From Fragilaria crotonensis (taxonomy: Eukaryota > Bacillariophyta > Fragilariophyceae > Fragilariales > Fragilariaceae), in assembly GCA_022925895.1 (NCBI GenBank), contig JAKSYS010000006.1, positions 124,001 through 188,000 of the forward strand: 64,000 nucleotides of DNA, in the 5' to 3' direction. Both the position numbers and the translations under genes were made by a program. The notes beneath the pieces are model-generated. The model made no database searches, had not been told where the DNA came from, and worked only from the letters and a program-made list of their open reading frames with translations. Each line of letters begins with the position of its first letter. The stretch's first letter is position 1. Shown here in pieces: positions 13,110 to 22,863 of the stretch.

Positions 13110-13292
13110 TCATCATCATCATCATCATCATCATCATCATCATCATCATCATCATCATCATCATCATCATCATCATCATCATCATCATCATCATCATCAT
13201 CATCATCATCATCATCATCATCATCATCATCATCATCATCATCATCATCATCATCATCATCATCATCATCATCATCATCATCATCATCATCA
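13110..13292. repeat. Pure TCA trinucleotide microsatellite, left tract
   Basis: 183 bases, 61 uninterrupted TCA units as read. The last two units form the outer end of the left terminal inverted repeat of the transposon. The tract creates artefact frames of poly-Met, poly-Ile and poly-Ser. Confidence 0.98.
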
Positions 13293-13310
13293 GGGGGGCC
13301 AAATCTCTGG
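13287..13310 (+). repeat. Left terminal inverted repeat of the Plavaka-like element
   Basis: 24 bp reading TCATCAGGG then GGGCC then AAATCTCTGG. Matches the reverse complement of 22840-22863 except at positions 10 and 12. If the TCATCA is counted as host microsatellite, the repeat is 18 bp starting GGG. Confidence 0.85.
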
Positions 13311-13482
13311 AGTCTGAATAATTATTTTTGACATTTTATAAATAAATATTTGAATATCTTTCACCTTAATCGTTGGCTATTACTTAGAAAATTTCTAGAT
13401 ATTTATGTACAAAAAGTGAAATTACTGCAGAAGTATCTTTAAAGTTTTATACATAATTCTGTACAAAGGCTTTCTCCCATTT

Positions 13483-13550
13483 GGCCAAACTTTCCCGCAA
13501 ATATTTCTAGTGTGACATTCCAAACTTTCCCGCAAATATTTCTAGTGTTA
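13483..13550 (+). repeat. Two-copy subterminal direct repeat
   Basis: The run CCAAACTTTCCCGCAAATAT followed by TTCTAGTGT occurs twice in tandem with about 38 bp spacing, just inside the left end of the transposon. Subterminal repeats of this kind are often transposase-binding sites; that role is inferred. Confidence 0.75.
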
Positions 13551-13614
13551 AGCTGGCACAGTACTGTACTACTACTGTGTGTTGTTGCCAGCACACTAAC
13601 AAGCACCATTGTTA

Positions 13615-19491: not shown

Positions 19492-19521
19492 TTGATACGT
19501 ACTATAGTTGAAGAATGCGGA

Positions 19522-22425
19522 TCACCACACAGATTTGTAAAACAGAGATGCCCACTCCTCCTTATCCTTCACGACAAAAACTGTGTCCGTAAGCTCGCAA
19601 CCATCGACAAGTACATAACACAAAGAAACAAGTGCAGTGCTGGAAACAACGTAGAATTTTCGGTCAAAGGTCCACTCAGTGAACAATATGGACTCGCGAC
19701 CAGTGGGCTGATTGCAAGATTGGACCACGAGGTCGAATGACTTATCCTCCTGGGGATGTCCACGTCGGTGAATACAACTGACAATACGACATGGGAAGTC
19801 ATCAAATTTCCTTGATCGTCTTCAAACCGAATCAATGCCCAATCATACCAGGGATATCCATCACCTCGAAAATTTGGATGGGCTCGAATGGAAATGCACT
19901 TCTCTTCTGAATCAACTTCGTACTTTGTGTATTCAGTGCTACACTCTATCGTACCCTCCCCATTCTCATCCAAGTCAGTTTCACTGTACGATTGCACTAT
20001 GAAAAGTGCAAGATTTGGTTCGAGGTGGATGGGTTCCCTTGTTTCCGTTATGAAAACAACTTCACGAACCAAACGATTGTTCTGATTGGGATCACGGAAG
20101 CATCGGATGTGATAGCGAGTGCCACGACCTACTTCTTTCGTTGCTAGTGGACGTGATGTGTTGAGGGAGCGTTTTTCACGGAATTCTTCTGCAAACACGG
20201 CGTGCATTGTGTCTATGACTAATGTGTCGGCAATTCTCCGTGCGCACTGCTGGTCTATCGTCTGAATGCACTTTTGTGAACGACGAGCAGGGCGCTTTGC
20301 ATGGGCCTTGTGATGTTCCTCGGGTCGTGAGGCATTGTAACCACGAGGTGCTCCAAACGTAGAAATGAAACGGACGATGTGTTTCAATTCGTGGAATTTG
20401 ACACCTTCCAGCCATTACCAGCATCTCGTGGGAGGTACTTCAGAATAAGAGACATGAGCCGTGTAATTGCATTTTCTGCCAAGGCTGCCTCCCCAACTTT
20501 ATCTCCTCCTATAGCGTCCCAATAGGTATCAGCATCCAGCCATGCCTCAAAGCACAGAAGGCATTCCATTGTACCCAGGACTGCCGGAAGATCGGGGATG
20601 TACCTTGAGATGGCATGCCATACCTCAGCCTGCATAGTCAGTGCAGCGAAAAGGAACAAAGTACCTGATTGTTCCGAGCACTCAATAAGTGTTAGGTTGG
20701 TGATGCCGCGTGCGAAATCAGTTCGAGGAAAATCTTGACGAATAGTTTGGAGGCATGTGACATCAAATTTAAGTGCCATGTCATCAAGGATTGCCAAGAT
20801 CTCGGCGCCAAGAAAAGTCTTGAATGACTCAAGTACATACATGATGACACCATGCTGTACAGTATGCATGACATCGATGACAGCACACATGAAGATGCCA
20901 TGAGGATTACGTCCCATCTGGACACGGTTGAAGGCATTGTCAACCCTGTACATCGAGAGCTGCTGAAGAAAATCGTCTGTCCCATTGCGACATGCATCAT
21001 TGACATAATCCATGCGAAGAAAAGAACACTCAACATTTGGATTGTCAAGATCGTCAAAACACAATCACAGGACCGATGGTGACGCGGTGTACTTCTATGG
21101 TGACTGTTTGTACGGCAGCAAAGTTGATCGCCTTGCTTACCATCATTAATCACAAAAAGCAGTGGACAAACAATATCAACAACCACCCACTGACCGCCAA
21201 GTTTCAAAGGAACATTCCTCAAACGACAATCATTTCCAGCTTGTGCCTTTGACATGCCATTCAAAATAACGTCCATCACTGCATGAAAATTACGTGTGGT
21301 GCGTCCTTTGGACTGTGCGTTATTGGCTTGAGAGTTCATTGCGGATGATCGTCCGCGATTCAAGTCGGGAACATAGCCTAGTACTCGCCAGGATGTGCTC
21401 TTTCTCCTGAGCTTCTCAGTGAAGAGAGATGTTGTGAAGGACACAGGACACACTTCAACATGCCCCTTGCTGTCAATGGCAGTCCCATCAATATAGAGGA
21501 TGATAGGGACAAGTAGCTGATTCTTTCGAGTGATAAGTTCATGATAGAGCTCACGGTAGCGGCTTCCAGTGTGTGCCTCACCAATTTTGTTGTTGCGTGG
21601 GAGGTACATTGACGTGGGATCCTCGTGGTTAAGCACAAGATTTTCTGGTGCCATCAAGTCTTCATCCTGTAGCAACGACAAAAGGATGGGAGCAAAGTCA
21701 AAGCAAGCAATCTGTTGAGGTTTGTCACGATCTTCAAGGGCAATGGAGATCACCTGGGGGAGATGGTGGTGTGAATGTTGCAAAGCCTGATACATCCATC
21801 GGATGTTCGCTTTCCTGGACATAGCTTTTGGCTTGAAGTCAAAGCCGCTAGACTTTGCATTGTAAGCCCACATTAAAACTTTGTGCAGCATATAGTCAGG
21901 ACACTGGGCGTCCTCCAGAATCTTCAAAAGTTCAACAATGCATCGATGTTCAACATCATGTTGCAAAACCATCACTGCATGCCTCTCATTTGCACGAATG
22001 CGTTCCATCAACGCATGGACAACTGCAGGAGATGCAGTATTGTCAATTCCAGGAAAGAGTGTCATTGTTATTGGAAGTTGATCTAACTGCTGGGCATTAA
22101 AACACATTTCATTCTTGTCATTTTCATTGTCATCATCATCATCATTGCCGTCGTCATAGCCAGTTGTTCCATAGTCAAATTCTTCGAATGGCATGTGCGT
22201 GGGAGGATTTGTGTCCATTCCTGGATTCAGGCGGGTTGATTCTACACCATAACAGGGACGTCGCACTGTCGAAACAATTTCGGGGCAACCATCCACGCTT
22301 GCCCGAGTTCCTGACTGCTGCCTTTCCATGTAATCCTTACAGGATGAACTCCGCCAAAGGTGCATACGCAGTCCGCGTTCAGATTTAAACCTAGCATAGC
22401 AATTGATGTTAAAGCAATCAAACAT
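19522..22425 (-). CDS. Plavaka-like (KDZ-related) transposase, with three single-base frame breaks
   Basis: Starts at the ATG at 22425 (the frame upstream reaches only a TTG) with a zinc finger, CFNINCYARF...MHLWRSSSC. After an acidic linker comes the Plavaka core: VPIILYIDGTAIDSKGHVEV, RRKSTSWRVLGYVPDL, then a Cys/His segment (CCRTNSHHRS...SCDC), VIDVMHTVQHGVIMYVLESF, and the distal motif GW-V-KFHELKHIV followed by PEEHHKAHAKRP. The frame changes at about 21056-21059 (AAAA on the + strand), 20397-20399 (TTT) and 19804-19809 (AAATTT). In each case changing a homopolymer by one base restores the homologous-looking frame, for about 968 residues. So it is a recent pseudogene, or intact in a misread assembly. 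It converges with the dioxygenase-like gene. Confidence 0.7.
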
Positions 22426-22839
22426 GACAATTGTCAACAATGCCTGATGGTGCAACTTTGAGGTCTATTTTCTGAATTCACAACATACGATGCATACTGC
22501 AACAAATTTTGGCGCGAGATATAGGCAACATAATCCTGAGTCTGGCACGTGAAGAAAATTGCGCGGGCATCCTTGGAACTTGCGCATGAGTGAACATTGG
22601 CCCGGTGGTGACCCATTACAGAGAATTCAAGATAAAATACCATTGAATAATGCACAAAGAGTTATTATTGTAAAACAATATCTACAACAAAGCTACAAAT
22701 ATCTGAAAATCATACATTGCCAATAAATAGGAGAAATGTGTTTTGTTGTTCATATATATTTACAATGAAGCAAACATTTCTCAGAAATAAGTAGAAATTG
22801 ATGGAATATGTGATTAAAACCCACTGGGTGAAGTACAAA

Positions 22840-22863
22840 CCAGAGATTTGGGCTCCCTGATGA
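22840..22863 (-). repeat. Right terminal inverted repeat of the Plavaka-like element
   Basis: Reads CCAGAGATTT, then GGGCTCCCTGATGA on the + strand; its reverse complement equals the left repeat except at two positions. The TGATGA end faces TCATCA repeats outside. Confidence 0.85.

Follow-up and report, generated by a model that had tools for sequence, protein, structure and literature searches.

The window analysed here, a stretch of 64,000 nucleotides from the diatom Fragilaria crotonensis (NCBI GenBank assembly GCA_022925895.1, contig JAKSYS010000006.1, positions 124,001 to 188,000 of the forward strand), harbors a mobile element of about 9.6 kb which, within the limits of what sequence and predicted structures can establish, is a PlavakaB-type DNA transposon carrying a cargo gene of the TET/JBP fold. 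An initial annotation, made from the sequence letters, had proposed three genes between inverted ends in a probable diatom, and both the layout and the diatom host have held up. The reading that we favor as probable is that of a cut-and-paste transposon whose second gene (gene 2) most likely oxidises 5-methylcytosine (5mC) and thereby counters silencing. The RAG1/Transib-like transposase would act on the CATCA...TGATG ends and make a target site duplication (TSD) of 2 bp, the divergent TET/JBP-type gene 2 would oxidise 5mC on the element's own CpG-methylated DNA, and the weakened host silencing would let the transposase and the accessory genes be expressed. The activity of gene 2, 5mC in DNA as its substrate, and the relief of silencing by its product are inferred.

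The extent of the element is given by its other genomic copies, whose boundaries place it between 13288 and 22862. The left terminal inverted repeat (13288-13310, plus strand, CATCAGGGGGGCCAAATCTCTGG) has a boundary common to 12 genomic matches, one with an extra flanking base that matches by chance, and the right repeat (22840-22862, minus strand, read there as CATCAGGGAGCCCAAATCTCTGG) has one on which 13 of its 15 genomic matches agree, two weak ones (75-77%) being the exceptions. These 12 left-end and 15 right-end matches, returned by a genome search with the element ends, stop at the same base plus or minus one, apart from the two weak right-end matches, and their number genome-wide argues that the inverted ends exceed chance. 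The presence of such ends was thus correctly recognized, and the agreement claimed for the 24-bp arms has to be lowered from 22/24 to 21/24. Eleven of the left ends can be paired with 11 of the right ends, and the elements so defined are the window copy and C3, C103, C137, C76, C261, C188, C317, C14, C295, and C594; all 11 start with CATCAGGG and finish with CCCTGATG, and the termini 5'-CATCA..TGATG-3' are found in 11/11. At the window copy the putative TSD is AT (13286-13287 on the left, 22863-22864 on the right, from flanking bases compared among copies), which is ambiguous and alone uninformative because this copy lies inside an (ATC)n array; the duplication is clearer at other copies, and a 2-bp TSD was found at eight of nine distinct non-window sites (C3, C103, C261, C137/C76, C188, C317, C14, and C594), with C137 and C76 counted as one site on account of their identical flanks and C295 being the sole site with no 2-bp flank match. 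Long (ATC)n arrays of the same strand sense occur on both sides of the window copy (13110-13292 and 22863-22985), which looks as if it had been inserted into a microsatellite; the 60-70 flanking bases of the other ten paired copies are not (ATC)n arrays.

The transposase gene (19522-22425, minus strand, frame broken in the window copy) contains the core ILYIDGTAID quoted in the annotation, and its proposed Plavaka-like nature is supported by its relatives, by the ends and TSD, and by a predicted RAG1/Transib-like (CMCT) fold. The profile PF18759 gave no match to the window transposase's own protein; it matches 7 of 45 aligned transposase relatives (best 1.5e-12) and 7 of 52 tabulated relatives, three of them at 57-69% identity. 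RAG1/ProtoRAG/Transib transposases themselves are about 10% identical to the diatom protein and differ in their ends and in their target duplication, which for RAG/Transib is 5 bp. In fungi, PlavakaB is defined by termini CATCA..TGATG and a TSD of 2-3 bp, and all TET-positive fungal Plavaka elements are PlavakaB, according to the sections of PMC12730594 on these elements. A viral origin was rejected, as no relatives of gene 2 or the transposase are found in IMG/VR, and gene 2 has no relative in GTDB genome contigs, where the transposase was not sought. Two homolog searches apart from these scored the best ~8000 candidates each. In metagenomes, the one jgi contig listed for a gene-2 relative (P0011) and the one listed for a Plavaka relative (P0094) both measure 6226 bases; judging from the equal length this is perhaps the same contig, and the pair would then be present in another organism.

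Gene 2 (17083-19491, plus strand) is broken in the window copy and intact in C137. The motifs SHFD and IRHC, from which a dioxygenase had been proposed, are present on the plus strand with a distance of 62 residues from His to His (18643 and 18829). The proposal hinged on a dioxygenase fold being predicted for this gene, and one was found, in the form of a double-stranded beta-helix nearest to those of TET2, NgTET1, CcTet, and CMD1 and with the TET/JBP iron triad. In an alignment of 63 family rows, the predicted iron site HxD...H (18643-18831) comprises the first His (18643-18645) in 63/63 rows, Asp (18649-18651) in 62/63, and the distal His (18829-18831) in 63/63. By sequence position, a further Asp stands five residues past the first His in 62 of the 63 rows, and the Asp at this place contacts N4 of 5mC in CMD1 and NgTET1 (PMC7854593, in its description of the active site). 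This residue speaks against gene 2 being a 2-oxoglutarate (2OG)-type oxygenase acting on another substrate, such as N6-methyladenine, thymine, RNA, or protein, in the manner of AlkB/FTO or prolyl hydroxylases, and so does the fold comparison, in which the best FTO row falls 7.7 Z units short of the best TET2 row; we therefore regard such a substrate as improbable.

Gene 2 is under purifying selection, with dN/dS (the ratio of nonsynonymous to synonymous substitution rates) of 0.12-0.15 between families in four pairs at 59-74% identity, two of which have dS values of 2.1 and 3.1, near saturation, two further pairs giving no computable dS; two close pairs with few changes gave 0.21 and 0.32. As for its presumed substrate, the genome search for host C5-methyltransferases gave 13 matches, the best at 5.9e-67, and in Phaeodactylum transposable elements are the main CG-methylated targets and are overexpressed on loss of DNMT5, as PMC9998398 reports. 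Among copies of the element (seven sequences, six further copies), C>T changes affect 62 of 2471 CpG sites vs 67 of 13339 other C:G sites (odds ratio 5.1, p 4e-18), and A:T transitions 111 of 19840 sites; the repeats at 16340-17080 and alignment pieces under 400 bases were left out of this test. Such a fivefold excess is the trace expected of CpG methylation. Of the private C>T changes among five full copies, 15/26 are at CpG, and in gene 2 of the Mutator type described below the corresponding counts are 25/1504 at CpG vs 20/4466.

Several observations weigh against oxidation of 5mC by gene 2 on methylated element DNA. The culture was not axenic, so that bacteria could be the source of a methyltransferase match on another contig. 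The CpG test assumes the polarity of the changes and draws on transposon copies alone, without a non-transposon control, and six very recent gene-2 copies of the Plavaka group carry no CpG signal (0/909 vs 2/3101), a comparison that holds 11 changes in all and is uninformative. The TET/JBP profile PF12851 has no match genome-wide at E 0.1, with no true positive in 14 control genomes, nor any among the gene-2 proteins scanned, and a profile of the gene-2 family retrieves no TET from the PDB sequences, its only rows being weak ones to troponin C outside the catalytic part. Low TM-scores were obtained for the TET/JBP rows (by model 0.18-0.24, by target 0.19-0.49), because the regions around the core differ. 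Finally, there is no conserved Arg or Lys across the 63 rows at the start of the last strand, the usual 2OG-holding place; without a conserved Arg there, the use of 2OG is doubtful.

This last point bears on a possible alternative chemistry. In the active-site account of PMC7854593, a Trp 13 residues past the first iron His of CMD1 occupies the place of the 2OG-binding Arg. If gene 2 were CMD1-like, it would have the TET/JBP fold and use ascorbate instead of 2OG, and it would put a bulky mark like 5-glyceryl-methylcytosine (5gmC) on methylcytosine, marking or shielding the element and not demethylating it. The family has Trp at His+13 in 59/63 rows and Phe in the other 4, an equivalence that comes from ungapped counting and not from superposition, and its last strand begins without a conserved Arg; two residues each present in 63/63 rows, an Arg adjacent to the distal His and one Lys, could hold 2OG. 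CMD1 is moreover among the top fold matches, and one aligner gives it the highest identity within that group (14-16%). On the other hand, TET2 outscores CMD1 in both fold comparisons, and the Foldseek identities of CMD1 (11-12%) and TET2 (10-12%) make CMD1 no closer. A CMD1-like activity is possible on these grounds, if rather unlikely, and oxidation of 5mC with relief of silencing is retained as the preferred reading.

The association of the gene-2 family with transposases is strong in the genome as a whole, where 40 of the 48 loci of the gene-2 family have one of 172 transposase loci no more than 5 kb away, with ~1.8 expected under uniform placement. The loci were merged by hand from tables of best candidates (for gene 2 the best 56 of 523), and for the SWIM-type transposase 16 loci were used and weaker rows left out. 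The 48 loci are not independent, since the 14 at P0002-type transposases include 7 copies of the window's family, and among the other seven the six that were sampled nearly duplicate each other. For each transposase type beside gene 2, the name comes from a Pfam scan of one example. Fourteen gene-2 loci adjoin the window's Plavaka type, all convergent (14/14), and 11 adjoin a second Plavaka type (PF18759 at 6.3e-8), 10 of them convergent and the exception being the disrupted C317. A further 14 adjoin a Mutator-like transposase with an Ulp1 protease domain (Peptidase_C48 at 1.3e-8, with a sub-threshold MuDR DNA-binding match at 0.0087), 13 in divergent orientation and 1 in the same sense, and one adjoins, convergently, a Mutator-like transposase of another type (MULE, PF10551 at 4.4e-12). 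By sequence comparison, the gene-2 association extends past one element, the same family standing beside Mutator-like transposases, a link by proximity. An example is found in C131 (L028, 6624-8846), where an Ulp1-type (C48) protease frame with a sub-threshold MuDR DNA-binding match is divergent from an intact gene-2 relative of 808 amino acids.

These neighborhoods also bear on whether gene 2 is a mere passenger, that is, a host gene that transposons have picked up with no gain for themselves. Mutator elements do capture genes, and eight of the 48 gene-2 loci have no transposase within 5 kb in the tables. Of the two of these that were inspected, however, one (C108, L051, 365-3578) has a neighboring frame, convergent with the gene-2 relative, that has sub-threshold MULE and SWIM matches and is possibly a further Mutator-like transposase type, and the other (C637, L052) ends 0.4 kb past gene 2 and has a divergent frame that bears a weak likeness to gene 1 in exon 2 (E 4e-4) and none in exon 1 (E 0.99). 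The purifying selection, the near-fixed orientation in each transposon type, and the clustering by type on the tree argue likewise against a passenger, which we consider very improbable. In that tree of 39 proteins, 25 of them labelled by partner, the 10 Ulp1-Mutator rows fall on one side of a branch with support 100, the 7 window-type Plavaka rows fall together with support 97, and the second Plavaka type needs 2 changes; all four partner labels require 3 changes vs 12.6 in shuffles, in what is a quick tree with long-branch warnings. So few changes suggest that gene 2 moved between superfamilies rarely and then stayed. A combined proposal, namely that at least two unrelated diatom superfamilies (PlavakaB and Mutator-like) share a hitherto unrecognized CMD1-like TET/JBP branch that writes a hypermodified cytosine on methylated transposon DNA with ascorbate and so turns the silencing mark into a self-protecting one, is put forward here as a tentative idea of low probability.

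The third, spliced gene that had been expected corresponds to gene 1 (13615-15276, minus strand), whose two open frames (exon 1 at 14355-15276, with canonical splice sites, and exon 2 at 13615-14279) are separated by a predicted GT-AG intron of 75 nt (14280-14354, GTGAGG...TTTCACAG). The resulting protein of 528 amino acids is basic and Gln/Arg-rich and gave no Pfam match above the cut-off. Homologs of gene 1 adjoin Plavaka transposases, being present within 10 kb at 24/39 window-type Plavaka loci (0.5 expected), or at 16/27 when the window's own family is set aside, and near none (0/31) of the Ulp1-Mutator loci examined, 31 of the 45 Ulp1-type Mutator loci having been taken in. It follows that gene 1 accompanies Plavaka and that gene 2 is shared; gene 1 may serve as a DNA-binding or expression helper. 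Gene 2 is divergent from gene 1 and convergent with the transposase gene, with 30 nt between the stop codons. In the region between the divergent genes 1 and 2 (16350-17070), a 34-nt unit occurs six times, and the near-palindromic core CTGCCATATAGCAG is found in five of these copies, which together perhaps form a common promoter or protein-binding array; this region aligns with shifts among element copies, so the number of units probably varies. A perfect direct repeat of 29 nt (at 13485 and 13520, within 13485-13548) is found close to the element's left end.

All three gene regions are present in seven elements, of which the window copy, C3, C103, C137, and C76 are ~9.6 kb each and C188 and C317 are lengthened by inserts. 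The annotation had held that copies of the inverted ends without these genes would count against it; such copies exist, and the objection is not sustained, as C14, C295, and C594 are internal deletions lacking gene 2 and part of the transposase and C261 has its gene-2 region swapped for other sequence. In addition, C629 has one left and one right end in opposite orientation, which remain unpaired, and C84 has gene 2, the transposase, and the right end with no left-end match. With translations judged by eye, the insert of C188 (L015/L016) is 9.1 kb long with frames like those of long interspersed nuclear elements, and the middle of C261 (L013/L014) is 6.4 kb of degenerate retroelement-like sequence in place of the original. 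C137 and C76 (L011, L012) are on two contigs with the same flanks and insertion site, and they probably represent alleles, or else a duplication that the assembly retained. The five full copies have substitution identities of 99.2-99.6% in the five pairs compared. Frame-shifting indels are nonetheless numerous in them; nearly all measure 1-2 nt, and most were seen in no more than two of the five copies. Compared with the five-copy majority, gene 2 of the window copy has 4 such indels and its transposase has 3. In C137, gene 2 is one open frame of 808 amino acids, and the transposase has a frame of 833 amino acids overlapping a further piece of 214. The assembly was made with Canu from nanopore reads with short-read polishing, as stated in PMC9476933. 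Given base divergence below 1%, indels confined to few copies, and a nanopore-based assembly, most frame breaks are taken as uncorrected assembly errors, an explanation that fits and is not proven. Splicing of gene 2 or the transposase was rejected as their cause, since the breaks are small indels mostly in 1-2 of 5 copies and the C137 frames are long and open.

The presence of TET/JBP-like cargo in a diatom suggests that transposons outside fungi also carry tools for undoing their silencing, and cargo common to unrelated transposons is what would be expected of an anti-silencing tool. Knock-outs are possible in Phaeodactylum, where it can be tested directly whether such enzymes free transposons from silencing, and should gene 2 prove CMD1-like in its chemistry, diatoms may possess a new DNA base. 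Chlamydomonas CMD1 shares with gene 2 the TET/JBP fold, the HxD...H triad, Asp at His+5, and Trp at His+13; their structure-alignment identity is 11-16%, and the parts of PMC7854593 concerned with the enzyme mention no transposon link. The Kyakuja-Dileera-Zisupton (KDZ) elements of fungi, which had been put forward as the nearest parallel, likewise combine a transposon with a TET/JBP accessory gene. Their TSDs are of 8 bp in Zisupton and Dileera and 7 bp in Kyakuja, according to the descriptions in PMC12730594, in contrast to the 2 bp of the diatom element with its RAG1/Transib-like transposase, which rules out KDZ membership. The postulated partnership of transposon and TET/JBP gene in a stramenopile is upheld, and its closest parallel is instead fungal PlavakaB, with its matching termini and TSD of 2-3 bp. 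Phytophthora HarbingerS and MuDR elements carry SET histone methyltransferase genes (PMC12730594, in its remarks on these elements); they too are stramenopile DNA transposons, one of Mutator type, with a gene for an epigenetic enzyme, unlike the diatom element in that this is a histone methyltransferase and that no Plavaka is involved. Epigenetic cargo itself is therefore not new in stramenopile transposons.

The earlier statement that no description of this three-gene layout in diatoms was known agrees with the open-access literature searched, where the matches listed (in places the best 15 of 206 or the best 8 of 121) gave no precedent for a diatom or Mutator partnership with such cargo; the text of PMC12730594 contains neither "diatom" nor "stramenopile." The fungal PlavakaB elements with TET/JBP genes treated there (Kojima 2025, in the portions describing them) share with the diatom element the CATCA..TGATG termini, the TSD of 2-3 bp, the Plavaka transposase, and the TET/JBP cargo, and there too related cargo genes are common to unrelated transposon superfamilies. 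The diatom cargo differs in forming a family of its own, divergent in sequence, whose HxD contrasts with the HxE of the fungal PE type (the one listed for Plavaka), and in its partners, which are Plavaka and Mutator-like in the diatom; the same source names 11 TET-positive lineages, with MuDR not among them. Transposon-borne TET/JBP genes are thus known from fungi, and the diatom host, the cargo family missed by profiles, and the partnership with Mutator-like transposases are new, judging from the literature searched.

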